Origin: a virus
IMG/VR virus record: IMGVR_UViG_3300044981_000338
Location: 106,767 to 170,766 of that record
Strand: one strand, 5' to 3'
DNA length: 64,000 bases
The translations under genes and the position numbers were made by a program. The notes under the pieces were generated by a model that had not been told where the DNA came from, did no database searches, and saw only the letters and a program-made list of their open reading frames with translations. Within the stretch, counting starts at the first letter, position 1. The number at the start of each line of letters is the position of its first letter. Of the stretch, positions 7,001 to 60,324 are shown in pieces.

Positions 7001-8001
7001 GAGTAGAGGCGGTCGGTGAACCCCGTCGGCACCATTAGTGGGTAAGTCAGCCCATCGGCCTCGTCGTAGATGTACTGGCTGCCGAGAGGTGCGTTGATGA
7101 GGCGCCACTTGTACGTGAGCGGAGCGTTCTGCGGGTCGGAGCTCTTTGTGCCATCGAGCTGCAGGATGGAGCAGAACTGGATGGCCTGGTCGAGCCCGGG
7201 GTCGGCGATGGGCTGCAGTGAAGGCAGGATGACGCCCGTACCGAGGCAGATGGCATCGAGCAGAACAACCGTCGGCTCAGTCAGCGAACCTCGCACGCTG
7301 ACCACCGACTGGCTGGGCGGTACAATCGTGGCGCTCGAGGACGGGATGGCCGGCATCACGTAGCGCAGCTGGTGGCCTGTGATGGGAACTTGGCTGGTCT
7401 CGGTGATGTAGATGTAGACAGCTCCCGTAAGGAAGCTCATCGCAATGAGGTAGGTCCAGTACGTGTCCTCGCTAACAAAGGACTGGCTACCTGGCAGAGC
7501 TTGTACCGGCGTCTCGAGCACGAGGTTGTTCGAACCATCGAACGAGACCGAGCCTGTGTAGAGGATGCCAATCTTGGAGATGAAGAGACCGACGCACCCA
7601 CCCGACGGAGAAAAGGTGCCGAAGTACGAGTGCCGATTGGTCAGGTCGAGGAAGTCCTGCGGCAGGTCCTGCCACTTCGCCGTGAACGTGAATGTGAAGA
7701 CTTCCGGAACGGAGACGTCGAAAAAGATGGCGGCGTCGGTCGTCGGGTAGAGCGGACCACCAGAAGCCAAGACCTGGTCCATCGTGAGGAAGTCGATGGG
7801 GAACTGCCCACCACTTCCGATGGTCGATACGTTGCTATACGTGAGCGTGAGCGCGATTTCCTGGCACGTGCCCAGGCAGAAGACGTCGTAGGGAGGGCAG
7901 TTTGGTAGAGGTCCTCCTCCGCCGGAAAGCGTAAGGGACGCCCACGGCGCCATCCCCCAGGGGGCGACGCCCCATCCAGTTGAGTGGGGGGAGGGCGGCA
8001 C
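4060..8001 (-). CDS. Giant virion protein with PKD-like domain (1313 aa)
   Basis: This very large protein has an N-terminal jelly-roll-like half and, near residues 285-440, a PKD/Ig-like domain (ADPGLDQAIQFCSILQLDG, then SDPQNAPLTYKWRLINAP). The middle part (about 450-560) is helical and may contact tail structure; the rest is beta-rich. The extreme C-terminus is another beta-sandwich. It lies between the small SCP2-like gene and the InPase gene in the tail operon. The start is uncertain: GTG 8001 gives the full length and ATG 7953 is an alternative. Likely a baseplate or fibre component, by size, composition and position. Confidence 0.8.
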   Translation of the reverse strand: MPPSPHSTGWGVAPWGMAPWASLTLSGGGGPLPNCPPYDVFCLGTCQEIALTLTYSNVSTIGSGGQFPIDFLTMDQVLASGGPLYPTTDAAIFFDVSVPEVFTFTFTAKWQDLPQDFLDLTNRHSYFGTFSPSGGCVGLFISKIGILYTGSVSFDGSNNLVLETPVQALPGSQSFVSEDTYWTYLIAMSFLTGAVYIYITETSQVPITGHQLRYVMPAIPSSSATIVPPSQSVVSVRGSLTEPTVVLLDAICLGTGVILPSLQPIADPGLDQAIQFCSILQLDGTKSSDPQNAPLTYKWRLINAPLGSQYIYDEADGLTYPLMVPTGFTDRLYSASLETLNSTHPILANDVIVVGGNPYDISGTGTDGHGFYVQITEFLLPDSLSTNTPFKYLPQNGLNTPTSPKPTFYPDVPGIYLFDLVVFDGVLHSLPETTLVNVVESSVARGCTPDLTFVWNYLSNFWNLVEGKERITTFWQGMAQVAAAELLNLWQVDYSKSLRDIQRTFQRKWLHYDLLMQESPLLLEQSTVRAVFGGVESVDIPTPGGISGIASTHLDIQLAVLGAPTVISFVAQDPYTAAQLLATLQSIFAQIDTRIAVRSILNRAGTVTHLRIDAPFPFTILSTSSCPLFVPGSVNAPPQGTGGAGVATVSTYRTEKSLQFLDIELNDFLCIDGVAYRIASVVDGPSDTWPFQRVTLRDPLPVPVDVAWSISGTVTSPDLDFWNGLCEQGDIVTYEVLNIASNTLLEVTGPALGSSSVLTQSLPVDATNVGFYLATPGTYAVFLKSILRRKYMPLDPLIVDVPLLQQTIVSTDDTQVLRRNVDFFFDSFRGQSCLRFVTPVPTGAGGPDVWQAQLPPAQLWAETSYLDNSTRIQNNFGIPADFTLDQLSQLPSNVDYLSAVRGLWYAYFNGPTVFNLRAGSQILLGLPFAEEAGTIVGIRNDFTVTTGQILVQDLADTTIVRAYTYPKVLALETNPATGAPYAIGDTVQQFAPLVTGVEISDWVNNPTWFHGYLEQGVFFEVEKYFKFLMRVDSAAFDLQALLFARSFVLRIKPTYTYPVFVVLLSISDTDISVSDEVDLSGTLLIFDGACFDGTKGVATMFDQPRPAGGGWRSQYDHNADPLSPPTYPTPNYPIVWGFDKNYLCPEDFIIGTICTTFASPTVVTYDSLFQFDVPVYTADMIYFSAGAQVLIPGAGLQVEGPVTVPSPGGTINSLTLQVVIPHPTTPNTYDLVIKKNGTTVETQAFTASSSVALTVPVSIVVVPGDVLTAFIVPTGLSDVAVAWDSVLVETGISVPWTFDDTLAAGTYCSFRVM

Positions 8002-9169: not shown

Positions 9170-9454
9170 GTGCACTTCAAGCCTCTCAACCCTGAAGTAG
9201 CGGCGAAACTGGTGGAAGGGTACACCAATGAGCTCGCGCCACAGGCCAAAGCGCTCGACGCCTTCTACCGGCAGTTTCGCTGCCCTCGATGCAAGGGACC
9301 ATGCCAGAGAGAACACGTCGAGGGGCACATCTTCAATGACCCCGACACGCTCGTTCCGCGCTCTTGTCTGCGCTGTACGACGCCGGGGTGTGGCTGCCTC
9401 TTCGATCCGCATTCGGGGCTCCTTGTTTCCGGCCCTAAGCAATCCGCCGGGTAA
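9170..9454 (+). CDS. Small zinc-ribbon protein on the opposite strand
   Basis: The 94-residue frame carries two Cys pairs (CPRCKGPCQREH and CLRCTTPGCGCLFDP) ending in a 'DP-x-S-G-L' tail, a pattern seen in many small phage zinc proteins. The minus-strand alternative here has no protein-like character. It starts with GTG, has no clear Shine-Dalgarno, begins only 23 bp from the divergent start at 9146, and overlaps the baseplate gene's 3' end by 20 bp. The coding call rests on the Cys pattern alone. Confidence 0.55.
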   Translation: MHFKPLNPEVAAKLVEGYTNELAPQAKALDAFYRQFRCPRCKGPCQREHVEGHIFNDPDTLVPRSCLRCTTPGCGCLFDPHSGLLVSGPKQSAG

Positions 9455-12400
9455 CAAGCAGAACATCCGGGATGAAAGCAGCCAGTCGGCCTGTGTTGAG
9501 GGCGTTCTGGCTTCTCTCGACCGTGACCGTGCGGTCGACGTTGTGGATGACGGCGATGAGGCTGATGGGGTGGTCGACCGACCGCGCACCGCGCACGCTG
9601 GCCAAGTGATCGAGGTCGCTCACCTCGAACGAGTCGGTGGGGAAGAGCCCCGTGATGAACGTCTGGATGTCGGGGATGAGCACGTCCTCTTTCGACCCGC
9701 CCGTGTACGTCATCGAGAAGCGTACGAAGTAAGGCGTCAGGTGGCGTGCGAGCGTGCTCTCGTTGATGACTCTCTCAGTGTCACTTCGCGCGAAGTTGTC
9801 GACATCGTTTGTGAGCCCGCTGCGCTCGTAGTTGATCTGTAGGTTCTGTCCTGAGAGCTGCGTGGCATTGGCCGGGTCGTCGGTCACGCCCACCTCTAGG
9901 ATGGACCGCGAGATGTGCATCTTCGGCTTCTCGACCGGTGAGAAGGACAGGTCTGGGTCGTCGGTCGTCAGGAAGTAACCATCCGAGCGGTAACCAGTCA
10001 CTGTCATCTGCAAGTTCGCCGAGATGTTGTACTGGTCTCCCGTACCCTCCGAAACGAGCTGCACGTCGAAGAAGTAGAGGTTCGCGCTGCTTGCATCGAC
10101 ATTGACGGCCATCGACGTCGAGACGATGCGCTGCAGCCCTGCGCGGAAGACCTTGAACTGCTGACTGGATGTGGCCGTCGCGTCCGTCGGGAAGGGCGGC
10201 GTGACCTGCAGCTGGTTCGGATTGCCTCCGGGGCCCACGACCTGGATGGTGTAGTTGCCCTTGTCCGGCGAGTCGTTGTTCTGGTCGACGCCATCGACAA
10301 CAGAGAAGCCAAGCAGGCCGTTGGCACTCGAGGGAGAGCTAGAGCCTCGAATGATGACCGAGGCATCAGGATTGAACTGCAGCTGGTTGGTTCCTGTGAG
10401 GCTGCAGATGACCTGCCCCACGATGGCGTTGATCTGGGCAGGTACGCCGGCACGGGTCACATCGGTCGAAGGTATAGAGCCTGCGTCGTGGATGAAGATT
10501 ATGTTTTTGTCGACCCCACCGTTGATGCTCACAACGAGCGTCTTGGTGTTGAGGTTGGCCACAGGGTCGGCCAGTACAACGGTCCCCGTCAGGGGCACGA
10601 AGTCGATGGAGAGCTGATCTCCAGGCTGGATGCTCTTGGCGATGAAGTCGGTCGAGAGCGACTGGAACGTCGCCGGCGACGTCGGAAGCGCACCACCTGT
10701 CGTACCATCCAGCGGCTTCACCCCATTCGGCAGTGGGGGGATGGCTTGGTAGCTGTTGGTCGGGTCTGGGAAGAAGTTGAGCTCCGAGCCGTCTGAGTTC
10801 GTGAGCGTGAAGACGGTGTTCGGGTCCACCTCGAAGCTCGTGGGATCGAGGAAGTAGACGCGCGCCGTGCCAAGAGAACGGGAGCCGACCTGGATGTGGC
10901 GGCCCACCTCAGGGTTGAAGTCGTGTCGCGTGCGCAGCGGGTCGTTCTGCAACGAAGAGAACGGTGTGTTGGGAACGGGCTCGGAGGAGTCGCCAGAGAA
11001 CGCAGGTCCAATCAAGGCGAGAGAGTAGAAACCGATCTGCAGACCGTCGACCACCTGAGCCACGTCGAAGTTCGAGTCGAGTGCGGGTCGAAGAGCAGCC
11101 CAACCTCCGAGACCGCGCACCTCGAGGGAGGTCACGTCCCTGGAAGTGACGACGGGTGTCATAGCCCCGTAGAGAAGGGCCATGGCCGTCCCGCCGGTCA
11201 CGCGCACATTCGGGCCGACAGGCAGAAGTCCTACGCGGTGCCCGTTGTCGAGAACAACAGCGAGAAGGTCGACCGCTCCTGCCGTAGTAGTGAGAACCGC
11301 CGCGTTGATCTGCGCGACCATGGTCGCCGGCGAGATGGGGTTCGGGCCTGAGAACGTCACCGTGAAAGGCGACTGCCCATCCCACCGGATGTTGATGCTG
11401 CGCGTATTCACCGCCAGCCCCACAAGAGGCATGGAGAGTGTCACCAGGCCCAGCACACCGTCGGTCAGGTCGAACTTGATGCCGCGGGCCGCATTCGCAA
11501 AGCCCTGGGACTCGACATCGATGGGGTTGGCGTACGGAATGATGGTTCCCACCGGCTGGCTCGACGTGTCGAGCAGGTCGATGCTGTCGATACGCACGAA
11601 GGGTGGAAGAAGCCCTCCATCAGCGTTCGCACGGAAGATGGAGTACTGGGCTCCGTTGACCGTGGCCGGCAGGTTCCGGTCGACCTGCACATGCGTGAAG
11701 AGCGGCGAGAGGACCTGCTGCACAACGTAGTCGCCGACGATGAGGCCACCCGTTGTGATGCGCAGGATGTCGTTGGGGCCCACACCGTACGTATCAAAGT
11801 CGACACCGCTTATGGTGCTGACGATGTCGAGACCCTGCACCGTCGTCAGGTCCGGACCCTTGACCTTCGTTTCTTTCGGCTCGATGAGGTCGATGAAGAG
11901 GCTCGAGCTGATGCGCCAGCGAGAAGTACCCACCACGACGGCGATGGGCTGGTCCACGGTCAGAACCGGAGAGGACAGCGGCGTTTGAACCACCGCCAGG
12001 ATTCGGTAGTTGCCCGCGTTGGGAGGGTCGAGGATCTGCAGCGAGAGGTTCTCGCTCGATGCCTGCTGCAGCGCCGTATACGTCGAGTCTCCGACCGAGT
12101 AGTCCACACCCAGAACAAGGTCGCCGAGCGTGACCGTCGACGTCGTGGTGTACGTGAGGTCGATGCCGCTGAGCAGAGGGTCGTCGTCGACGATGTCGTT
12201 CAGGACGAGCGTGGCAGGATCGAAGGACTGTCCCCGGATATAGATGTCGGTGGCCCCGCCGATATGCACCTGGTTGGGTGGCACTTCGATGGTGCCCGCC
12301 GGCGTGTCGGGAAAGAGAATGCCGCCGGGGATGTTCGAGAGCGTGAGGGTCATCTTACGCAGCGTCCAGACGATGCTCGTGGCCGACTGCAGAAGGACCT

Positions 12401-13505
12401 GGTCCTCGAGGTCGAGCGTCTGGGTGTCGACGACTGTCAGAACGTCAATGTCGCGAACAAGCGGCAGCGAGCCTGCTTGAAAGGCATCGGCCACAGTGAG
12501 CGTGAAGCCCTCTCCAGAAGACTGCGTGGGTCCGATAAGGGCCGTGAAGTCGACTCCGAGCTCGGTCGTCTTGATGCGGCGCGTGAAGACCGCGTTCTGC
12601 CCGTCAGGCTCGGCAAACATCGCGACACCAGAGGCGAGGATGGGACCGAGTCCTCCTCCAGTCAGTACGTCACGGTGCATCTCCGGGTCGTTGAAGCCGA
12701 TGGGCTGGATGCGCGTCACTTCGGAGAACGCCGCTGTCAGCTGCGCCACGATGCCGCGCTGTGTGACAAGCGACCGCTCAGTGAGCTCCTGGTCCAGCCG
12801 GTCGACGAAGTCGACGGCGCTCTCGTCCGGAGTGCCTGTCCGGAAGCGCAGCTTGTTGGTGATGCGCTGTGCGGCACCCAGATTGGCGATGGTTACGACC
12901 TGGTCAGGGCCGATGTTGTACTGGTCTCCCGCTGCCTCGGCGATGGTGTTGATGTCGAAGAAGTACAGCGTGCCTTCGAGATTCAGCTGCATCTCGTCGA
13001 CGCGGATGCTTTGAATCTCGGTTGGGAAGTAGTGCAGGCCTTGTTTGTCGGTGATGAAGTTCGAGGGAGTGACAGAGGCGTTCTGCGGCTGCGCGAAATA
13101 GATGCGCACGACGCCCGTCGACTTGTTGCCTGCGTTGCGCGCAGAGAAGAGGTTCGCTCCGAGAGCCTCTGCCTCGTCGGTCGTCAGGGTTGTCGGGTCG
13201 GCGAAAGACTGCGCGCCCGCCACGCGCGAGATCTCGCGCACGATGGGGTTCCACAGAACAACGGCGGCCTTGATGAGCAAGTCGGTGATCGCGTCGCCTT
13301 CTTTGGTCGGCATGTCCGGAAACTGCTGGTTGAGCAGCGTCTGGATGAAGAGGCCGATGTCGACGGTGAAAGGATCGGTGCCGAGACGGCGCAGAATCGG
13401 CTGGATGACCTGAACGTCGTAAGGGGAACCTGGGGTCAGGTCGAGCGTGTTGTCGACCTGCTGCAACCGCTGGACGATGAACGCTTGGAGGTCGGCTACG
13501 CTCAT
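9435..13505 (-). CDS. Baseplate J-like giant protein (1356 aa)
   Basis: The N-terminal about 260 residues match baseplate J/gp6-type wedge proteins: MSVADLQAFIVQRL, LTPGSPYDVQVI, a long helical segment, GNKSTGVVRIYFAQPQ and AAGDQYNIGP. A diverged copy of the last block occurs near residues 1120-1175 (LYFFDVQLVSEGTGDQYNI), so the J-type module is duplicated at both ends. The central about 850 residues contain repeated beta units around 'NAGNYRI', 'VGDYVVQQV' and 'DKGNYTIQV'. The gene follows the IPT/TIG protein with a 2-nt gap. It is likely a core baseplate wedge component. Confidence 0.85.
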   Translation of the reverse strand: MSVADLQAFIVQRLQQVDNTLDLTPGSPYDVQVIQPILRRLGTDPFTVDIGLFIQTLLNQQFPDMPTKEGDAITDLLIKAAVVLWNPIVREISRVAGAQSFADPTTLTTDEAEALGANLFSARNAGNKSTGVVRIYFAQPQNASVTPSNFITDKQGLHYFPTEIQSIRVDEMQLNLEGTLYFFDINTIAEAAGDQYNIGPDQVVTIANLGAAQRITNKLRFRTGTPDESAVDFVDRLDQELTERSLVTQRGIVAQLTAAFSEVTRIQPIGFNDPEMHRDVLTGGGLGPILASGVAMFAEPDGQNAVFTRRIKTTELGVDFTALIGPTQSSGEGFTLTVADAFQAGSLPLVRDIDVLTVVDTQTLDLEDQVLLQSATSIVWTLRKMTLTLSNIPGGILFPDTPAGTIEVPPNQVHIGGATDIYIRGQSFDPATLVLNDIVDDDPLLSGIDLTYTTTSTVTLGDLVLGVDYSVGDSTYTALQQASSENLSLQILDPPNAGNYRILAVVQTPLSSPVLTVDQPIAVVVGTSRWRISSSLFIDLIEPKETKVKGPDLTTVQGLDIVSTISGVDFDTYGVGPNDILRITTGGLIVGDYVVQQVLSPLFTHVQVDRNLPATVNGAQYSIFRANADGGLLPPFVRIDSIDLLDTSSQPVGTIIPYANPIDVESQGFANAARGIKFDLTDGVLGLVTLSMPLVGLAVNTRSINIRWDGQSPFTVTFSGPNPISPATMVAQINAAVLTTTAGAVDLLAVVLDNGHRVGLLPVGPNVRVTGGTAMALLYGAMTPVVTSRDVTSLEVRGLGGWAALRPALDSNFDVAQVVDGLQIGFYSLALIGPAFSGDSSEPVPNTPFSSLQNDPLRTRHDFNPEVGRHIQVGSRSLGTARVYFLDPTSFEVDPNTVFTLTNSDGSELNFFPDPTNSYQAIPPLPNGVKPLDGTTGGALPTSPATFQSLSTDFIAKSIQPGDQLSIDFVPLTGTVVLADPVANLNTKTLVVSINGGVDKNIIFIHDAGSIPSTDVTRAGVPAQINAIVGQVICSLTGTNQLQFNPDASVIIRGSSSPSSANGLLGFSVVDGVDQNNDSPDKGNYTIQVVGPGGNPNQLQVTPPFPTDATATSSQQFKVFRAGLQRIVSTSMAVNVDASSANLYFFDVQLVSEGTGDQYNISANLQMTVTGYRSDGYFLTTDDPDLSFSPVEKPKMHISRSILEVGVTDDPANATQLSGQNLQINYERSGLTNDVDNFARSDTERVINESTLARHLTPYFVRFSMTYTGGSKEDVLIPDIQTFITGLFPTDSFEVSDLDHLASVRGARSVDHPISLIAVIHNVDRTVTVERSQNALNTGRLAAFIPDVLLVTRRIA

Positions 13506-28460: not shown

Positions 28461-29057
28461 TCATCCCTTTTCCTTGGTGAGGGCGGCAATCTCGGCCTGC
28501 GCAGCGGCCCTGATGTCAGGACGCGCTTCTTGGAGGGCCTTCAGCATATCGGCTTCCTTCTCAAGCTCCTGCTTGAGCAGGGCAGCGAAGCGAGGCCACA
28601 CCTTCGTGCAGAAGCTCCACACGTCTGGGTTGGGCTTGTAGCAAGCGTACTCGCTTGCCTGAGAGAACAACGTCTCGGACTGCCAGGCCATGTAGGCCAT
28701 CTCGTCCGGCATGTCGAAGGCCTTGAGCTTCTCGACCTCGCCTTCATAGGCACTCCAATGAAGCCCAGTGTTCTCCTCACTAGCGTCGTTGGCCTCTTTC
28801 AACGCCTCGAGCAGCGCCTTCTTGGTGGCCTCCTCGTCGAAGACCTTCGCGTCTCTGCGACCATGCGTCAGCTTCTTGCAGAGGTAGTCCGCGTCGAGGT
28901 CGGCGAGGAACGCGCGGAACTCTCTGCCAGGGCTACGCCAGACGTAGGCGTAGTTGCCCCAGTCTGAGACGGTGCTGAAGAAGCCGATCTCGGTATCGAT
29001 GACGATGATGGCCCAGCCTTCGTTCTTGACGGACGGGAGGTTGTAACGCTTGAGCAT
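28461..29057 (-). CDS. Conserved phage protein (198 aa)
   Basis: The product begins MLKRYNLPSVKNEGWAIIVI and contains TVSDWGNYAYVWRSPGREF and FLADLDADYLCKKL, a signature found in phage proteins of unknown function. The C-terminal part is a long helix. ATG 29057 follows AAGGACAAGG. Function unknown. Confidence 0.8.
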   Translation of the reverse strand: MLKRYNLPSVKNEGWAIIVIDTEIGFFSTVSDWGNYAYVWRSPGREFRAFLADLDADYLCKKLTHGRRDAKVFDEEATKKALLEALKEANDASEENTGLHWSAYEGEVEKLKAFDMPDEMAYMAWQSETLFSQASEYACYKPNPDVWSFCTKVWPRFAALLKQELEKEADMLKALQEARPDIRAAAQAEIAALTKEKG

Positions 29058-29578
29058 AGTGCCTTGTCCTTTGGTTCGTTCCTCATCGTGGTGGCCATCG
29101 GCAGATGACGCTTGCCGAGGAGCTTGTCGTTGAACTTGGCCATCTCCTTCGGGTCCCACGTGCAGTCGGCGAACTCACAGTCGTGGCCGTTAGGGTAGCG
29201 ACGGCACATGTCGGGGCGCTCATCGTAGATGCTGCAGTCGCCGTTGAGCAGGACGTACTTGCATGCGTAGAAGTGCTGCGCTTGCTGCCGGTGCGTGTAA
29301 GGGTTTCGCGCCTCCACCTCCATCTGCAGCTGCGCGTTGTTCTTGCTGTCCTTGCTTGCGATGCGCAGCCCCTTGGCCGCCCAGCTCTCCCCTTTGAGGC
29401 GCATGAGCGGGTTCGCGGGGAAGTCGCCGAGGTAGATGAGCATCGAGTGGAGCTTGTCGATTTCAGGCCAGCGCTGCGGGTCGTCCTTCGGAAGCGAGAC
29501 GTGGTGCAGCACCTCGGCGGGCGACAACGAGATAGAGAACGACCGGCAGCAGTGGCCCGAACATGTACGCTTGGACAT
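28868..29578 (-). CDS. YkgJ-like Cys-cluster protein
   Basis: An N-terminal CSGHCC is followed by ACKYVLLNGDCSIYDERPDM and CRRYPNGHDCEF. This is the Cys pattern of YkgJ-type (Fe-S or zinc binding) proteins. The family part covers about residues 1-155. The remaining residues to the stop at 28868 overlap the next gene by 190 bp and are Ser/Thr-rich, so the functional C-terminus is uncertain. ATG 29578 overlaps the previous stop as TGATG. Confidence 0.75.
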   Translation of the reverse strand: MSKRTCSGHCCRSFSISLSPAEVLHHVSLPKDDPQRWPEIDKLHSMLIYLGDFPANPLMRLKGESWAAKGLRIASKDSKNNAQLQMEVEARNPYTHRQQAQHFYACKYVLLNGDCSIYDERPDMCRRYPNGHDCEFADCTWDPKEMAKFNDKLLGKRHLPMATTMRNEPKDKALCSSVTTSRPSRTKAGPSSSSIPRSASSAPSQTGATTPTSGVALAESSARSSPTSTRTTSARS

Positions 29579-39843: not shown

Positions 39844-40758
39844 CTACTCATCCTCCTCGTCGCGATGCTTGTTGAGCTTCTTGGCCGCCAGGCGCAGCCG
39901 GTCCTTGTCGTCGTCCTCGCGCGTGATGATGTCGTCCATCAGGTCCTTGTCGACCAGGGCGTCGAGCTCCTTCTTGATTACCTGGGCGAGCACGTTGGGT
40001 GGCAGAGCGTCGACCTCCCAGGAGTGGTTGCCGTGCTCCTCGATGTACGCCGCTGCGCGTGGGTCGGTGATCTTCGCTGGGTTGGGCGGCGGCTTGTACT
40101 TGCGCACCTGTGGCATCGTGAGCGCGACCTTCTTCACGTGCAGCTCGGCGCCGAAGAGAGCCAACCGGTCGCGCACGTCGCGCACCATGTCCTCACCTGA
40201 GGGGTCGTGGTCCCCCAGGTAGAGCAGGTGGGCCGACTTGCGCAGGTCGTCCTCGCTCTCCTCCCCACAGTTCTCGACGAAGCGCTTGGCGCTCTCGTAC
40301 ATGGCGCTCGCAGAGGAGTAGCCGCGGTTGACCATCAGCGTGATGTGGTACTCGCGTGCGATGGGCTGGAGCACGCCGGCGAGGGCGTCCTTCTCCACCC
40401 ACAGCTCGACGTAGTTGTCCTGCCCCTGCCAGCGAGGCAGGCGGTAGGCGTTCAAGGCCACCCGTACGAGCTCCTCGATGTCCTTGAAGTCCTGCACAAC
40501 GCGCGGCTGTCGAACGCGGTCCTCGATGGCCTCCCAGTCCATCAGGCCCGCCATGCGCGCATCGGTCACGAGCGTCGAGAGGTTCTTGTAGCTGCGCTCG
40601 AGGTTCGGGATGAGGTTCTTGGTGACCAGCTGGTAGTAAAGCTGCCGGAGGGTGAGGCGTAGGCCCTGCGCCTGGTAGTCCTCGATGATCTCGTTGCACT
40701 TCTCGATGCGGTCGAGCGACTCGGGCTTGAACTTGATGTCCTTGAACCACTCTTTCAC
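39844..40758 (-). CDS. Spo11/topoisomerase VI subunit A-like TOPRIM protein
   Basis: The 304-residue product has an N-terminal winged-helix-like part with LRLTLRQLYYQLVTKNLIPN, resembling the CAP domain of topoisomerase VI A/Spo11 where a conserved 'R-x-(I/L)-Y-Y' carries the catalytic Tyr. A TOPRIM region follows with NYVELWVEKDALAGVL (the acidic residue of the first strand) and HLLYLGDHDPSGEDMVRD (DxDxxG-like). DNA double-strand cleavage is a family-level prediction. GTG 40758 overlaps the previous stop (GTGA). Confidence 0.75.
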   Translation of the reverse strand: MKEWFKDIKFKPESLDRIEKCNEIIEDYQAQGLRLTLRQLYYQLVTKNLIPNLERSYKNLSTLVTDARMAGLMDWEAIEDRVRQPRVVQDFKDIEELVRVALNAYRLPRWQGQDNYVELWVEKDALAGVLQPIAREYHITLMVNRGYSSASAMYESAKRFVENCGEESEDDLRKSAHLLYLGDHDPSGEDMVRDVRDRLALFGAELHVKKVALTMPQVRKYKPPPNPAKITDPRAAAYIEEHGNHSWEVDALPPNVLAQVIKKELDALVDKDLMDDIITREDDDKDRLRLAAKKLNKHRDEEDE

Positions 40759-41240
40759 GCGAGCACCTTGGACAAGTACTTCACCGCGTCCTGCATCGAC
40801 TGGAAGATGCGCACGGGCACCGTGAGCATCAGGTTGTCCACGAGGTCGAAGTCCTCGACCTCGTGGCCGTCGTTGATCTTGTGGGCGGCGACGCGCTCCT
40901 TGTACGTGCTCGGGTCCGAGCAGTAGCCGGCGATGGGCATGCCGCGCGCGTACCCGTAGCCCATCTCCCACGCCGTGCCGACGTCCATCGAAGGCCCACG
41001 AAAGGCCTCCATGTTCGCGAGCATGGCGTTGCAGCTGTTGATGAACCGCACGTTGGCCAAGAAGATCTGCGCGGCCATCAGGTGCGGCACCTTGATGCTG
41101 TCGAGGACCGCATCGAGAGGGAACACGCCCTCCATCCCGTAGGTCGCACACTCGCTCTTGATGGCCTTCGCCTGCTCCTTCGCGGTCGTGTAGAAGACGT
41201 CCGGCCCGGCCAAGTAGATGCGCTTCGCTCTGTTGTCCAT
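40755..41240 (-). CDS. Nucleoside 2-deoxyribosyltransferase-like protein
   Basis: The 161-residue product shows KRIYLAGPDVFYTTAKEQAK and NAMLANMEAFRGPSMDVGTA, then WEMGYGYARGMPIAGYCSD. This is the layout of the nucleoside deoxyribosyltransferase/DNPH1 family, which transfers deoxyribose between bases or cleaves nucleotide glycosidic bonds. ATG 41240 has AGGAGC upstream. The active-site Glu of the family is not unambiguously assigned here. Confidence 0.85.
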   Translation of the reverse strand: MDNRAKRIYLAGPDVFYTTAKEQAKAIKSECATYGMEGVFPLDAVLDSIKVPHLMAAQIFLANVRFINSCNAMLANMEAFRGPSMDVGTAWEMGYGYARGMPIAGYCSDPSTYKERVAAHKINDGHEVEDFDLVDNLMLTVPVRIFQSMQDAVKYLSKVLA

Positions 41241-45320: not shown

Positions 45321-48300
45321 CTACTGCTTGCCCGACCCTGTCGAGCCAGTGGTTGTTCCAAAGGTGCTCGGCTCCCCGAAGTCCGTCGGTGGATCGACAG
45401 GAGCCCCAGGGATGGCCTCGTTCAAGTCCGAGCCCGTGAACTCGAAGTCCGGCGAGGCTGCGGACGTGAGGAGCTGGCTGTTCTGCGTCTCCGGCCTGTT
45501 GATCTTGCGCACCGGCAGGTCGTTCATCGCCACCGCGCGCGTGGCCGACTGGAAGGCGCCGGCGTAGCTCGCCTCCTCAGCCGTGAGGTTGAAGAACGTG
45601 GAGAACTGCCCTTGCAAGAGCAGGTCGTTCGCGCGGTCGCTGCCCTTCTGGGCGAAGCTCTGGATGAGGGTATCGACAGCGGGGATGGGTTCCACGGTGT
45701 ACGTCTGCACGATGCTGTCGAGCGCTTGGCTCGGGTCCTGGCTCTGCGCAGTAGCCGCTGCCGCCGTCAGGAACACGAAGAGCGACTGCAGCATGTTGTA
45801 CGCCGCGGCGACCTGCAGCGCCGTCGGGTTCTGGTTGGCCAGAAGAGGGTTCACGACGCGACTGAAGTTCTCGAAGAAGAGCGGCTGGTTCACGCTGCGC
45901 GAGAGCCAGAGCTCGAAGGACGTCTGCACCGCCGTGAAGTCGTTCTTGATGCCGTGGCGCAGGCGCGCGAAGGGCACGGGCTGCACAGAGAACTGCCAGC
46001 TCGCATTGCTCGGGATGCCGAGGCCCGTGTTCTTGTCGACGCCCACCTGGATGATGTTCAGGCCGGCCACAACGTTCACGAGCTCGAAGGACAGGGTCGG
46101 CAGTGCATAGTCGGTCGGGTAGTACTCGAGGATGTCGCCAGCCTGCAGGCCTCGAGGGAGGCTTGGCAGCTGCATCCAGGGCGTCGAGCCGACCACGGTC
46201 GTGGGCCCCGAGAAGAACAAGGTCACGGCGTTGCCGGCGATGACCAGCGCGCTCGCCGTGGTTGTGTTGAGCGACGACAAGGTTAGGTACATGTCCCCCA
46301 GGCTGGCCGTGATGGTCACGGGCTGCAGCGTCGTGCCCTGCTGCGTCTGGGGCAGGTTCTGAAGGAGGATGGCATCGATGGCCGTGTCCCCCTGGCCGCT
46401 CACGAAGTAATCGCCTGCGTTGGGCCCACCCGTGATGGTGACCACGCGGTACTTGGTCAGGACAAGCGTGGGGCCGAACTCCGCAGACACACCAGTGCCT
46501 GCCACACCCACGAACGTGCCGTTGGCATCAATGCTGTCGCCCACCGCCAGCGTGTGCCCTGTCGCCGTCACGCCGTTGATGGTCGCGATGGTGTAGCCAT
46601 TACCTGGGCTTGGCCCGCCTCGCAATGCGATGGTGTCACCCGTCGAGATGGTCCCACCCATCGTTACCGAAGTCACAACGAAGGTTACTTGCGGTCCCAC
46701 GAAGGACGTCGTGCCCGTAGCTGCCGCCGTCGAGAAGGCCACATGCGTCGGTACAGTGGCATCAGTGTGCGCCGTCGCAACGGGGCCGACAGAAGGGACG
46801 GTCACAGTCCCCGCTGACACCACCTGCGTCTTGGAGTTGATGTCGTTGGCCACGACGTCGGGCGTGGTCCTTCGGCAGTTGACCACGGCGCCATTGACGA
46901 AACCCAGCGTGCTGCAAGCGTTGGTGCTCGGTGTGTCGTCACCGAAGACGCTGAGCGAGGTCTCGGGCCCGAGCTGGGTCGAGGGGCTGTCCAAGCGTAC
47001 TCGCACCTTGCGATGAACGGCGCCGATCTCCACCTCCGCCCCCGGTTGGACCACCACCGTGCCCGTCACGGTGATGGAAGTAGGGGTCACCGCCGAGATG
47101 GGCAGCGGTCCGAGGGCAGCGTTGGCCCCTGACTGCACGGTCACTGTGTCCTCAGGCGCCACGCCGAGCTGCGTGAGGTCGGTCACCGGGCCACCTGTGA
47201 CCGTCCACGTTGTGTTGGTGCCCGCAGGGATGTCCATCGCCCCGGAGAACTTGAGCGGGGAGTAGTAGGCCTCGGCAACCGCACCTGCCGGAAGAACGGC
47301 CTGGATGTCCGCTGCCACCTGGTCTGCCGTACGCGTACTGTCGCCCCCTGCCGCCGACTCCTGGTTGGTGAAGCCGAGGATGCTGTTGGCCGTGCCTGGA
47401 AGAACCGTGACCGTCGTCGTAGAGCTTACGCCGATGGTTGTAATGACCACGCGGTTGCCCACAATCGAGGCCGTACCGAACAAGGAGATGGCGGCATTGA
47501 GCTGAGCAAGCAGCGCCGTCGAGTCGGCAGGCGCCGTGAAGGAGCCCGACTCCACCGTGAGCCCATTGAAGAGGAAGCTGAAGGTCTTGCCATTGAGGGT
47601 GCCCCCTCCTCCGTACCACCCTGCCGTCGTTGTATCGCCCGTGCCTGTCAGTACTGCGTGCGTCGGGGCGCCTGAGAGCGTGAGGGTGGCGACGTAAGTA
47701 GTACCCCCCACGTTCACCTTGACCTTGTTGTTGTTCGGGTAGGAGCCGCCAGGGCCTACTTGATGTGCCCCATCGCCGATGACGAAGGTCGAGTCGTCGC
47801 GTGAGCCATCGAGCTCCGCCATGATGGAGGGGTTCAGAACAAGGTCGAAGGGCGCCGCGCCATCCACAGTCAGATGAAGGGTGTCGCTCACGCCCGCAAT
47901 GATGGCTGCGCCGCCACCGATGGTCGCTTCGGCTAGAGCCGGCACCGCCAGATGGTTCACGTCCGAGTAGGCGGTGCCGAGGCCATCGAGCGAGTAGAAG
48001 TCGCTCGGCCCGGACACCACACCGAACGTATTGACCACCGCCTGCGTCGTCAGAAGGTTCAGTACTACTTGCCGGATGTCCGCGAGCCGCTGCGTGGGCG
48101 TCAGGCTGTTCAAGGCTGCCGCGTCTTTGCCGACGAGAGCTGCGCTGTTTGACAGGATGCTGCCCGCGACCACGCTCGGCAGGTTCATGCTGTTGTAGTC
48201 GTCGATGCCAGCAGCCAGCCCTTGTACGGTCGCCACGAGCTGGGCGTGGGCTTGTTGTACTTGCGTCAGCAGTCCTGGGATGGAGGCCCTTGCTCCTTGT

Positions 48301-48785
48301 GGCGTCTGCACGATGGCGCCGTTCTCCTTGACCGCCTGACCCGGCCCTCCCAGAAACTGGCCCACGTTCGAGGTGAACTGCTGGTAGGCGGGCGCCTTGG
48401 TCACGTCGACGATGGTGGAAGAACGACTGGCCGCTGCCGAGGCGAGGGCTTGCAGCGAGGCTTGCACTCCGAAGAGGGGCGAGACGTCATCGACCGGCAG
48501 TACCTTCCTCCCGAGGGCCTGGATGTCCGACAGGAGCTGGCTGATGAGCGCAGACTCTGCGGTGATCTGGTCGTTCAGCCGCTGGCACCCTAGGAACAGA
48601 ACGTAAAAAGGCGCGTTCGGGTAGAGCAAGAACACGCCCGCAGCAGCTTGTTGTACATCACTGAATGAAACATCCGTGCGGAGTACACCTAAAGTATCAA
48701 CCGGCCTCCGGATGGTTGACAGTACAAGCGACGTGACCGCGCTCTGGATCTCGTCGTCGGTGTAGCCGGTGGTGTTCTGGGTCAT
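45321..48785 (-). CDS. Giant virion protein (1154 aa)
   Basis: The N-terminal 240 residues are helical with AAAGVFLLYPNAPFYVLFLG and ASLQALASAAASRSSTIVDV. The middle is beta-rich, Thr/Gly/Val-rich, with repeated units near TATINGVTATGHTLAVGD and GPNAGDYFVSGQGDTAIDAI. The last 250 residues are helical again. 'NAGDYFVSG' resembles 'NAGNYRI' in the baseplate protein, so the two may share a repeat type. It is separated from the main tail block, yet composition and size suggest a structural role. ATG 48785 has AGGAAG. Confidence 0.8.
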   Translation of the reverse strand: MTQNTTGYTDDEIQSAVTSLVLSTIRRPVDTLGVLRTDVSFSDVQQAAAGVFLLYPNAPFYVLFLGCQRLNDQITAESALISQLLSDIQALGRKVLPVDDVSPLFGVQASLQALASAAASRSSTIVDVTKAPAYQQFTSNVGQFLGGPGQAVKENGAIVQTPQGARASIPGLLTQVQQAHAQLVATVQGLAAGIDDYNSMNLPSVVAGSILSNSAALVGKDAAALNSLTPTQRLADIRQVVLNLLTTQAVVNTFGVVSGPSDFYSLDGLGTAYSDVNHLAVPALAEATIGGGAAIIAGVSDTLHLTVDGAAPFDLVLNPSIMAELDGSRDDSTFVIGDGAHQVGPGGSYPNNNKVKVNVGGTTYVATLTLSGAPTHAVLTGTGDTTTAGWYGGGGTLNGKTFSFLFNGLTVESGSFTAPADSTALLAQLNAAISLFGTASIVGNRVVITTIGVSSTTTVTVLPGTANSILGFTNQESAAGGDSTRTADQVAADIQAVLPAGAVAEAYYSPLKFSGAMDIPAGTNTTWTVTGGPVTDLTQLGVAPEDTVTVQSGANAALGPLPISAVTPTSITVTGTVVVQPGAEVEIGAVHRKVRVRLDSPSTQLGPETSLSVFGDDTPSTNACSTLGFVNGAVVNCRRTTPDVVANDINSKTQVVSAGTVTVPSVGPVATAHTDATVPTHVAFSTAAATGTTSFVGPQVTFVVTSVTMGGTISTGDTIALRGGPSPGNGYTIATINGVTATGHTLAVGDSIDANGTFVGVAGTGVSAEFGPTLVLTKYRVVTITGGPNAGDYFVSGQGDTAIDAILLQNLPQTQQGTTLQPVTITASLGDMYLTLSSLNTTTASALVIAGNAVTLFFSGPTTVVGSTPWMQLPSLPRGLQAGDILEYYPTDYALPTLSFELVNVVAGLNIIQVGVDKNTGLGIPSNASWQFSVQPVPFARLRHGIKNDFTAVQTSFELWLSRSVNQPLFFENFSRVVNPLLANQNPTALQVAAAYNMLQSLFVFLTAAAATAQSQDPSQALDSIVQTYTVEPIPAVDTLIQSFAQKGSDRANDLLLQGQFSTFFNLTAEEASYAGAFQSATRAVAMNDLPVRKINRPETQNSQLLTSAASPDFEFTGSDLNEAIPGAPVDPPTDFGEPSTFGTTTGSTGSGKQ

Positions 48786-55097: not shown

Positions 55098-55118
55098 GAA
55101 TCGTACCTTCTTTTGCCT

Positions 55119-55157
55119 AAAAAGAAGGCCCCCGCCGCCATAGCGGAGAGGGCCTTC
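55119..55157 (-). terminator. Strong rho-independent terminator after array A
   Basis: On the minus strand GAAGGCCC pairs with GGGCCTTC, with an inner GC-rich loop, followed by TTTTTAGGC. It is placed directly after repeat array A and before the S1 element of the next gene, so it ends any transcript of the RAMP-like gene and array A. Confidence 0.85.
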
Positions 55158-55169
55158 AAGGCAGGGCGG

Positions 55170-55725
55170 GACTCGAACTGGCACGTCACGCGCTACGGGT
55201 CGACGTGGCATGTCTAGCGGGCGGGCTTGTGCAGGCGCGGCTTGTCACCTCGCGTAGTAAGGGGTGGGGTTGGCTTGTCACCTAGACGCGGTATGAGAAG
55301 ATTGGGCTCGTCGCGAGGAAGGACGCGGTCGGACGGGACTTCGGCATGGTTCGTCGCCAGGGATGTTCCGACTGGGGTTGGCTTGTCACACGGCTGGCCT
55401 GGGCATGGTTTGTCATGTCGGGATGGTGGAGTACGACACGTCGCACGTGATGGAGCGACTTGGCGCAAGATGGCTCGTCACCTGGGCAGGTCCTATGAGA
55501 CTAGGCATGTCGCTGGGGACGACTGGACTTGGCTCGTCGAGGGGGGGTGGCTAGTCTTGGCACGTCACGAGGCATTGTTCGGGACGGAATGTCTCCTGGC
55601 CTGGAAGATCACGGTGTGGTCAGGGATGTCATTCTGGTGCGACTCGGAGTGGAGAGGCTTGTCTCGTGGAAGGGATCGGGTTGGGCAGAGAAAGCTCGTC
55701 GCCGAGGCTAGTACTGGTGCGTCGC
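55170..55725. repeat. Degenerate repeat array A (about 17 units)
   Basis: A 556-bp region without a credible gene holds about 17 copies of an 11-base core. On the plus strand these read GGCNNGTCRCG (examples GGCACGTCACG, GGCTTGTCACC, GGCTCGTCGCG, GGCATGTCGCT, GGCTCGTCACC). Start-to-start spacing is about 27-43 bp, with purine/G-rich unconserved spacers. It lies between the RAMP-like gene and a strong terminator, so it would be its 3' untranslated region. Plus-strand long open frames here show periodic low-complexity translation and are rejected. Confidence 0.7.
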
Positions 55726-56499
55726 TCAGTTCTCGGCGGAGGCTTCGGAGGGCGCCTTCTTCTTACCGCCCTTCTCCTTCTTCTCCCCATTCGAGGCTTC
55801 GTCCTTGTCCTCATCCTTGGTCGTGACCTTCACCTTCTGCACCACGGTGAAGTCGGCGACGTCGAACTTGCCCATGCCCTGACTGCGGTCGGCGCCGATG
55901 CCGTCCTCCTGACCGAACGTGAGCATCTCGACGATGTCCTTCTCGCCGAGGTAGCGTGAGTCGCTCGGGTGGGTCTTGAGCACCCAGATCTCGAAGGTGA
56001 GCTCGACGCCCTCGCAGTAGTCGACCTTCTTCAGGGCCGTGCGCGGGCCCAGCGGCGTCTGCACGTGGATGGGACCTTCCTCGTTGCCGTCGGGCTCCTT
56101 GCGGTCGAGATAGTGGCGCTGGCCGCCATCCATGGCCTTGATCTCGAAGCCGTGCTGGAGCAGGTCTTTCGACCCGCGCTTGTTCTTGGTGAAGCGCAAC
56201 ATGGTCGCGCACTCCTTGAAGAGCGCCTTGATCTGCCGCGATTCGATGAACAGGCCCTTCTCCGGGTCGGCCTTGAACGTGTTCCAGCTCTTCTCGGTGA
56301 CCTTGTCGGTCAGGTCCTTGAGCGCTTCCTGGGTCTGGACCTCGGTCTGCTTGTCGTCGAAGCCGGTGCCGGCCTTGATCCAGTCCTTGATGAGGTCCGG
56401 GTTCTTCGGGAAGCCGCCGCAGATCTTCTCGCGGAAGCGGACGGTCACCTTGTAGATGTCGTAGAGAGCGCGGGACGAGAAGTCGTGGGTCGTGGTCAT
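55726..56499 (-). CDS. RAMP-like protein (Cas5/Cas6/Cas7-type loop)
   Basis: The 257-residue product has an N-terminal strand-helix-like start (IYKVTVRFREKICGGF) and RQIKALFKECATMLRF near residue 92, where RAMP proteins have their first helix. The C-terminal half has TALKKVDYCEGVELTFEI and, near residue 207, GIGADRSQGMGKFDVADF. That is the glycine-rich loop typical of CRISPR-associated RAMP proteins ('G-x-G-x-x-R-S-x-G-(F/Y/M)-G-(K/R)'). The C-terminal 30 residues are a Lys/Glu-rich tail. It is the only gene between two repeat arrays. ATG 56499 has TAGGAGAAC. RNA binding is a family inference; no cas genes are nearby. Confidence 0.7.
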   Translation of the reverse strand: MTTTHDFSSRALYDIYKVTVRFREKICGGFPKNPDLIKDWIKAGTGFDDKQTEVQTQEALKDLTDKVTEKSWNTFKADPEKGLFIESRQIKALFKECATMLRFTKNKRGSKDLLQHGFEIKAMDGGQRHYLDRKEPDGNEEGPIHVQTPLGPRTALKKVDYCEGVELTFEIWVLKTHPSDSRYLGEKDIVEMLTFGQEDGIGADRSQGMGKFDVADFTVVQKVKVTTKDEDKDEASNGEKKEKGGKKKAPSEASAEN

Positions 56500-56549
56500 G
56501 AGGTTGTTCTCCTAGGTGGGGGAAAAAGGAAGAAGGATAGGCAGGTATC

Positions 56550-57383
56550 GGCGTGGCCTGTCGCACGGAAGGGGTGCGGTTGGGCATGTCACGCAGGTGA
56601 GGCGAGCATCGGCGTAGATAGTCGCGAGGGCTTGTCCAAAGTCGACTTGTGTTGTCACAAGGGATTGGTGCAGATGGTCACGAGGCTTGGACGGACGCGG
56701 ATAGTCGTGATGGCCCGTGACGGGTTGCTTCGGCATGTCGCAACGGTGTGACTAGTACTGGTCCGCGGCAGGTGTGGTCAGTCGCGGCGGCTTGAGTCGG
56801 CACGGCATGTCGCGCGGTTGGGTAAGGTGTGGTTAGTCGCCGAGACGAGGAAGGTCCTGGGTTGCGATGGGTAGTCGCCGTGGTTTGTTACGAGACGAAT
56901 CGGCATGTCACCAAGGCAAAGGTTGGCGCGGCATGTCGCATCGGCGGGATATGGGAAGGCACGTCGCAACGGATAGAACAGGTTCGTCGCATGTCGAGGT
57001 GCGGTCCAGTTTGCCGCTACGGCAGGGGCGAAGTTAGAAACGGATCGTCGCGAAGACGTAGCTCAGGAAGGCAGGTCACCTAGACGAGAAAGGGATGACC
57101 AGTCGCGAAGGGGAGGACTGAAGAGACGAGGCATGTCGCGTGGTCCAGCATGCGTCGGATCGGCCCGTCGTGCAGGCGTGAATGGACTAGGTATGTCGCG
57201 AGGTCGGGATAGGGCTGGCTTGTCGCGCAGACTCGAGTGGGAATGGACTGTCGCCTGGTTCGGTAGGAAGTGGACTGTCACTACGGGACGGGTAGGGTTG
57301 GCACGTCGAGATGGATGGGTTGGGGCCGACTCGTCACGCAGACTGGGAAGGGGAGGCACGTCGTGAGGGAGCGGGCTGCACTG
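56550..57383. repeat. Degenerate repeat array B (about 28 units)
   Basis: An 834-bp region without a gene holds about 28 copies of the same core as array A. Examples are GGCATGTCACG, GGCATGTCGCG, GGCACGTCGCA, GGTATGTCGCG, GGCTTGTCGCG and GGACTGTCGCC. Spacing is close to 27-28 bp for the eight units nearest 57383 and less regular elsewhere. A 12-base stretch around CTAGTACTGGT recurs in both arrays. It is immediately 5' of the RAMP-like gene. Confidence 0.7.
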
Positions 57384-57671
57384 TCACACGGGAGCAGAAA
57401 GGCTTGGCTTGATTGTCCCGTCAGTGAGATCGACGAACCCGACGAAGTAATACCTCCATCCCATGCCGTGCTCGGTGTCCTTGGGGTACTTCTCCGGCGG
57501 CTCCGTGAATGTGCAGCCCTCACCCACCTTCAAGAACTGCAGGTGGCCAAGGCTCGCGCTGTCCATGGCGATGTTCTGGAATGCGGCCCATGTACCACCG
57601 CGCTCGCGCATCTGCTCGAGCGCTTCTTCTGCAGGCGTAGCGTCTCCCAGAAGAGGGTGCGGCTTGATCAC
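57384..57671 (-). CDS. Hypothetical protein (95 aa)
   Basis: GTG 57671 overlaps the previous stop (GTGA). The product has LEQMRERGGTWAAFQNIAMD, LGHLQFLKVGEGCTFTEPPE and GMGWRYYFVGFVDLTDGTI, an alpha/beta domain. It is the last gene before array B. Function unknown. Confidence 0.75.
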   Translation of the reverse strand: MIKPHPLLGDATPAEEALEQMRERGGTWAAFQNIAMDSASLGHLQFLKVGEGCTFTEPPEKYPKDTEHGMGWRYYFVGFVDLTDGTIKPSLSAPV

Positions 57672-58893: not shown

Positions 58894-60324
58894 CTACTGC
58901 AGCACCACCAAGTACTTCGAGCAGCGCGTGATGGCCGTGTAGATCCAGCGCTTCCAGTCGTCGTACGAGATGCGGTTTGGCTTCTCGGCCACCACTACGA
59001 CGTGCTCGAATTGGCTGCCTTGGGCTTTGTGGCAGGTCAAGGCATAGCCGTAATCAAGCAGCAGCCCCACCTGGCTCCAGTTGTTCGGCCGATGTCCAGT
59101 GGCCGCGTGGTACTCATTGAAGTCCTTGAAGGTGGTCGGGTGGCCGAGCTGCGGCGCGCTGATGCTGCCCGACACTTCAATCTCGTCATCCTCGAAGAGA
59201 ACGCGCCCTTCGTAGACGTACCGAGCGCTTTCCTCGATCTCCTGGATGGTGCCGCGCATCCCGTTGAAGATAGTGGCGTCGGTATTGCGGAGACAGATGA
59301 CCTGGTCGTCGACTTGTGGAGGATCAGCCCATGACGACTCCCAGCGCGTAACACGCGCTCGGTTGTTCAAGTCAACGCGAGTCTCATTCTTGTAGCAAAG
59401 CATCGCCACGTCGTCGTAGCGCACGCCCGGCGCCGTGAAGAGCTTCTGCACAACCTCGTTGACCTGGTTGTGCTCGAGCACCTGCACCTCTTCGCAGTCG
59501 GCCATCCTCGGTACCTGTCCCGTACGCCGCACGAACTCGCTGAGCGCGAGGATGGGGCTGTCCTCAGCTTGCCTGTGGATGGTCTCGAGCTTCAGGTGCG
59601 GCTTGTCCATCAGGCTAAAGCTGCCGAAGACCGGCGGCAGCTGCCCGTGATCGCCGACCGCGAGTATGGGGATGCCGTAGCTCTGGAGGTCGGTGAAGAG
59701 CTCCTCGTTGAGCATCGAGGCCTCGTCGACGACGATGAGGTCGTAGGGCAGCCTCTGGCGCTTCTTCCATCCGCGAATGCCTCCCGTCTTCTCGTTCGGG
59801 ATGGGGTAGTAGATAAGGCTGTGCAGCGTGCCAATGTCGAAGGCGCCCTTGACGATATTTGCCTCGTAGAATTTCTTTCTTAGTACCGACGTCGCCTTGC
59901 CGGTGAAGGCGCAGAAGGCGGCCTGCACATCGAGGTACTTGTTGGCGAACACCGAGAGCAGCGTGCTCTTACCTGTACCGGCATAACCGCCGACCTTCAG
60001 CAAGTCGCTCTCCTTTCGCTCATACCATTTGCTCATGGTGTCGAAGACCTCCCGTTGCTCCTTCGAGAGGCTGTTCTCGGTGAGCTTGCCGCCCATCTTG
60101 CGCTCGCCCTCGTTGAGCAGCTCATGCGGCTTCTTGTCCGTCTTGGGGACGAACTTGAACCGGTAGTCGCTGGTGGGCTTGTCCTCCTTTGGAGGCGTCT
60201 CAAAATCAGGCGTGGGAGCCACAGTGTACGGGTTTGTATACTTGCTCTTGGTAACGCTGGCAGCGTGCTGCCTGAACGAGCCAACCGCATTGAAGTTCGA
60301 CTTGTCGTTCTTACCGAAACTCAT
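58894..60324 (-). CDS. SF1 DNA helicase (Dda/RecD-like)
   Basis: The 476-residue product has a Walker A motif GGYAGTGKSTLLSVF (about residue 113) and Walker B DLIVVDEASML. It also has motif III AVGDHGQLPPVFGS, ETIHRQAEDS, and the C-terminal motifs YALTCHKAQGSQFEHVVVV and RWIYTAITRCSKYLVV. The first 85 residues are a low-complexity basic leader. This matches T4 Dda/RecD-type 5'-3' helicases used in replication initiation or recombination. It follows a small gene with a 14-bp overlap. Confidence 0.9.
   Translation of the reverse strand: MSFGKNDKSNFNAVGSFRQHAASVTKSKYTNPYTVAPTPDFETPPKEDKPTSDYRFKFVPKTDKKPHELLNEGERKMGGKLTENSLSKEQREVFDTMSKWYERKESDLLKVGGYAGTGKSTLLSVFANKYLDVQAAFCAFTGKATSVLRKKFYEANIVKGAFDIGTLHSLIYYPIPNEKTGGIRGWKKRQRLPYDLIVVDEASMLNEELFTDLQSYGIPILAVGDHGQLPPVFGSFSLMDKPHLKLETIHRQAEDSPILALSEFVRRTGQVPRMADCEEVQVLEHNQVNEVVQKLFTAPGVRYDDVAMLCYKNETRVDLNNRARVTRWESSWADPPQVDDQVICLRNTDATIFNGMRGTIQEIEESARYVYEGRVLFEDDEIEVSGSISAPQLGHPTTFKDFNEYHAATGHRPNNWSQVGLLLDYGYALTCHKAQGSQFEHVVVVAEKPNRISYDDWKRWIYTAITRCSKYLVVLQ

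Follow-up and report, generated by a model that had tools for sequence, protein, structure and literature searches.

A phage RAMP gene between GTC-punctuated pentanucleotide arrays is very probably a divergent VIPR system

TIGR-Tas systems are carried by phages, are guided by RNA and have their guides in tandem arrays; their Tas proteins have a Nop domain and not the RAMP fold. Another phage-borne system, VIPR, was described in a 2026 preprint from the Doudna laboratory (PMC13142463). According to that preprint, VIPR consists of a phage RAMP protein and of vrRNAs built from GGY/NN pentamers. The NN pairs read duplex DNA and pass over one base between them, in most cases the wobble base of a codon; the targets are competing phages and satellites. 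The described examples come from Escherichia phage SUSP1 and a Pseudomonas fulva prophage, and the preprint distinguishes seven types, among which are staggered arrays and variants of the consensus (its figs S17 and S18). The vrRNAs described there carry 9-16 repeats, with a structured 3' tail in the SUSP1 clade, and an accessory vap gene is typical but not universal (PMC13142463). Class 1 CRISPR systems, in which pairing is disrupted at each sixth guide position, offer an analogy to the skipped base, as PMC13142463 also sets out.

Here we describe a locus of an uncultivated phage in a 64,000-nucleotide stretch of DNA (the window), which comprises bases 106767-170766 of the 170,766-base virus record IMGVR_UViG_3300044981_000338. 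In this locus a gene for a small RAMP-like protein lies between two long noncoding arrays (Table 1). A first-pass annotation, made from the letters alone, knew of no described RAMP protein with such arrays; that statement has been overtaken by VIPR, which is a RAMP with this kind of flanking repeat RNA (PMC13142463), and we conclude that the locus is very probably a VIPR system and a divergent new member of that kind.

Table 1. Features of the locus, in window coordinates
Feature	Position	Strand	Description
vipr-like RAMP gene	55726-56499	(-)	257 aa; G-loop GIGADRSQGMGKF, residues 200-212; charged C-terminal tail
Array A	~55165-55725	(+) G-rich, opposite to gene	18 units of GRNNN pentamers, GTC-delimited
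Array B	~56540-57405	(+) G-rich	28 units of GRNNN pentamers, GTC-delimited
Example unit	56839-56876	(+)	GCCGA GACGA GGAAG GTCCT GGGTT GCGAT GGGTA, then GTC boundary
Intrinsic terminator	55118-55157	(-), gene strand, just beyond array A	stem GAAGGCCC...GGGCCTTC then TTTTT; MFE -34.9, z -2.5

The first-pass annotation called the protein RAMP-like and had the gene end in a loop of the RAMP kind. The loop is indeed present, but some 45 charged residues follow it, so that it is not the C-terminus of the 257-aa protein. The assignment to the RAMPs holds, as judged from a predicted structure and from sequence profiles. When an AlphaFold model of the protein (pLDDT 84.4, pTM 0.76) was used in a fold search of the PDB, the top matches were Cmr, Csm3 and type VII Cas7 (E 1e-7 to 1e-6), and all 50 of the matches listed were CRISPR RAMP subunits or complexes. 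Because TM-scores to PDB RAMP subunits are just ~0.4-0.55, the similarity to Cas7, Csm3 and Cmr is one at the level of the fold. The protein is a RAMP homologue with an RRM core and a G-loop. Searched on its own against Pfam and PHROG, the protein fell into no credible family, and a scan of viral contigs with this single query gave zero relatives; a multi-sequence alignment was therefore needed to find them. Its homologues in a Microcystis phage and in gut phages, used as seed, led to 37 viral and 28 genomic loci, and the homologues keep a GIGxxRxxGxGxF loop. A 40-member profile of this family matched Cas7 (3.4e-5) and Csm4 (1.3e-4) among sequence families, and hhalign gave a modest match to four SUSP1-type Viprs (E 1.5e-4, probability 52%) over 119 columns that include the G-loop. 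SUSP1 (KT454805.2) served as positive control, and the display used for the window showed GGYNN arrays beside Vipr there too; its Vipr, at 28474-29061 of that record, was assigned here from the G-loop and the flanking GGYNN arrays.

Looking for a vap gene, we found no neighbour of the window gene with a homologue near other vipr genes, and the neighbours lack a credible Pfam family. The window also encodes a Dda-like helicase (58894-60324(-)) and a DNA topoisomerase (39844-41151(-)), in keeping with a phage or provirus, together with three ORFs of 1154-1356 aa without a PHROG family (4060-8001, 9435-13505 and 45321-48785, all (-)), the last of which has no relative among 50,697 phage records.

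The arrays had been described at first pass as about 17 and about 28 copies of a core, GGCNNGTCRCG, spaced roughly 27-35 bp and with no genes inside. Hand curation of the core positions gave a count of 18 GTC-centred cores for array A and of 28 for array B, in good agreement with these numbers, and we found no credible gene there. On the + strand, GG[ACT]NNGTC[GA][CT] occurs 31 times in the ~1.5 kb of the arrays, and the 62.5 kb of the window outside them contain it 16 times, so that the core is ~80 times denser in the arrays; a scan for the core in the 106.8 kb of the record beyond the window revealed no further cluster, and the two arrays are unique within the 170.8-kb phage record. At the same time, the core is not the basic repeat it was taken for but sits where one run of GRNNN pentamers gives way to the next, and the rule that the first-pass annotation missed is a guanine each 5 bases with a register reset at every GTC. 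Instead of scattering between 27 and 35 bp, nearly all core spacings are 2 or 3 modulo 5 (22-23, 27-28, 32-33, 37-38), and the autocorrelation of + strand G at lag 5 is 0.23 and 0.26, with more peaks at 10, 27-28 and 32-33. With the cores aligned, G positions fall at -15, -10, -5, 0 and +5 upstream and at +13, +18, +23 and +28 downstream, and GTC therefore represents a register reset of ~3 bases between pentamer runs. Position 0 of the window pentamers carries 1.27 bits (G), position 1 carries 0.30 and positions 2-4 carry 0.04-0.05, that is, the pentamers have one fixed base and a hypervariable remainder. Both the lag-5 lattice and the GRNNN composition are those of flanking noncoding pentanucleotide arrays as they are found in VIPR, where the repeats follow GGY/NN or a related consensus. 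Most window units contain 4-7 pentamers, corresponding to 8-14 specifying bases, and the longest regular one (7 pentamers, 38 nt) is the example in Table 1. The last dinucleotide ahead of GTC is biased to [AT][CT], and with so few pentamers per unit this means that few specifying bases remain in each.

Given a RAMP fold of the Cas7/Csm4 kind, one might read the arrays as a CRISPR-related array, or as an anti-CRISPR built of CRISPR-like repeats. We regard this as hardly credible: CRISPR repeats cannot be reconciled with the pentamer lattice, the arrays show no alternation of identical direct repeats with unique spacers, an Rfam search with them gave no match, and folding of array segments was no better than that of shuffles (z 0.4 to 0.6), with no repeat hairpin. 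Folding also gave no structured vrRNA tail at the window arrays, which counts against the VIPR reading.

Gene and arrays co-occur in relatives, a check that the first-pass annotation had proposed. In 65 of the 68 homologue loci, our detector for 5-base lattices of G or C found one at most 2.5 kb away from the gene. As controls, other viral contigs gave 21 detections in 2.83 Mb (~1 per 135 kb), far flanks gave 4 in 218 kb and the window's own record gave 1 in 162.5 kb. Strand-polar repeats of ~28 bp that are noncoding and unique in the record look like iterons, and a different DNA-binding protein might thus use the arrays as double-stranded DNA sites (iterons, a centromere or sites for packaging), the RAMP gene being a mere neighbour. 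This seems very unlikely, given that arrays accompany the RAMP gene in those 65 loci of unrelated phages and prophages, with a clade-specific orientation, and that the lattice fits an RNA already described (VIPR, in PMC13142463, and the SUSP1 control). The survey is thus independent evidence that arrays of gapped guides keep company with RAMP genes in phages and prophages of very different kinds. The G-strand lies opposite to the gene in the window, in Mae-JY09, in L018-L023 and in Streptacidiphilus (L055), and these nine loci form one group with support 100/100. The window is the deepest member of this clade, and its exact place there is unsure because of its long branch.

The vipr-like gene of Microcystis phage Mae-JY09 (PP395641.1, 37713-38459; L009) is annotated as hypothetical (WWT39994.1) and is followed directly by a pentamer array; this phage is an isolate and usable for laboratory tests. 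L056-L082, from Clostridia and other prophages, have vipr-like genes with large arrays, often close to a cI-like repressor gene. Two near-identical gut vipr loci, L077 and L082, have arrays that differ at scattered positions, and the pair is suited to measuring which pentamer positions vary.

A guide in a sister array of the window's clade, L023 (IMGVR_UViG_3300010375_000438, ~6470-6530, minus strand), has 11-12 pentamers and allowed a decoding test. Targets were scanned for as exact patterns on viral contigs, with NN at pentamer positions 3-4 and a one-base skip, and the decoded guide matched at least 120 contigs. Nine consecutive dinucleotides spell HDDCV[IM]ALA, each skipped base being codon position 3. 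Among the matches listed, the longest frame is in this register in 103 of 120, the dinucleotide for H, which was not part of the seed, matches in 101 of 120, and the long ORFs in the frame where the skip is the third base (116/116) all belong to a single homologous cluster. We take this cluster to be the terminase large subunit, by the HDD motif and protein length. At the same time, the guide reads TG after ALA where known terminases carry another codon, which counts against the VIPR reading, and with this mismatch the exact target phage of the guide was not found. The scans of viral contigs with L023 unit 1, L023 unit 3 and the L018 guide serve as controls for the terminase result; unit 1 and the L018 guide gave nothing beyond chance and unit 3 gave 6 scattered matches only, and these outcomes, too, count against the VIPR reading. 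The agreement with the terminase HDD motif checks the one-base skip rule from outside and, coming from one guide, supports the view that the published rule holds in the window's own clade. It also suggests that the packaging enzyme of one phage may be targeted by another, at the codons that are most conserved.

These results bear on a further explanation, in which the arrays would be an RNA scaffold or decoy, coated by the RAMP at each G and otherwise filler without targeting information, for example titrating host or CRISPR factors. Such an RNA would agree with G alone being strongly constrained in the window pentamers, and with window units that are too short for safe targeting and are without a found target. 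We consider it improbable, because filler would not spell nine consecutive terminase codons by the published rule. The flanking arrays almost certainly encode gapped guide RNAs; that they may be RNA guides was among the first-pass suggestions, and with a sister guide that decodes to terminase it is the best reading.

For the window's own units, scans of viral contigs assigned no target, which counts against the VIPR reading. A local target search with array runs under 14 pairing rules gave nothing above shuffles except homologous arrays, and a codon-likeness test of the window dinucleotides gave no signal. The unit ending at 56874 (7 dinucleotides) has at least 120 matches, and 25 of them form a cluster around a phage protein of 457 aa; with just 14 specifying bases, we do not claim this protein as the target. 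The unit ending at 56621 spells [HQ][DE][DE]SV[Y] and, with GC added, matches a few terminase-like proteins (QDDSVYA). Since this unit was chosen after the resemblance had been noticed, the matches are not evidence. Several window units may act together as a single guide that spans the resets, the guides may simply be short, or the array may be read in another way.

By analogy with VIPR, the window's Vipr would bind RNA transcribed from the arrays, and the functional RNA is most likely the G-rich + strand, opposite to the gene. Because the region closes with a strong terminator for the gene strand (Table 1), array A may also be transcribed along with the gene, from that strand; we saw no conspicuous sigma-70-like promoter at the locus. 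Each protomer would hold one pentamer via the conserved G and present its last two bases to duplex DNA, so that a target would be read NN-skip-NN-skip, and in coding DNA the skipped base could fall at the third codon position. In a host that it shares with rival phages, satellites or prophages, the complex might then bind their genes and silence them. Transcription, RNA binding, the strand, a processing step at GTC and what the window units target are all inferred, as is the silencing of rivals, for which the basis is PMC13142463 and one decoded sister guide.

Compared with known systems, the window shares with TIGR-Tas a phage-borne, presumably RNA-guided organisation with tandem guide arrays; we rejected this identity, as no Nop domain was found and the PDB fold matches listed are all CRISPR RAMPs. 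The Class 1 CRISPR RAMPs Cas7, Csm3, Csm4 and Cmr resemble the window protein in fold and glycine loop, whereas the window has no CRISPR array, no cas genes recognised adjacent to it and a pitch of 5 and not 6 bases. The VIPR-like loci of Clostridia prophages (L025-L082 except L055) have a homologous protein and adjoining pentamer arrays but, unlike the window, carry G on the gene strand, in G-M-N-N-N pentamers, with a register shift of +1 at GCAAYG|G boundaries. VIPR, as set out in PMC13142463, and the window have in common a small G-loop phage RAMP, long noncoding flanks of 5-nt repeats, and a fixed G with variable bases, and the sister array follows the VIPR one-base skip rule. In that account, however, GGY-NN is strict while the window is relaxed to G-R-N-N-N, and single vrRNAs of 9-16 repeats with a structured tail stand against many short GTC-reset units (5n+3 or 5n+2 nt); the window also differs in its G-strand, which is opposite to vipr, and in having no recognised vap gene. 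Of these differences, the shortness of the units, the relaxed consensus and the missing vap gene speak against the VIPR reading, and so does the modest profile match to SUSP1 Vipr. A guide logic of units acting together across register resets is not spelled out in the available part of PMC13142463, and we suggest only tentatively, as a rather doubtful possibility, that the window and its relatives make up a VIPR type of their own, in which the staggered arrays are antisense and punctuated by GTC and the units, too short to serve as guides singly, act jointly across resets. The kind of system is already described, as VIPR, and the unexplained part is the short staggered units of the window, an unusual array architecture whose reading is directly testable.
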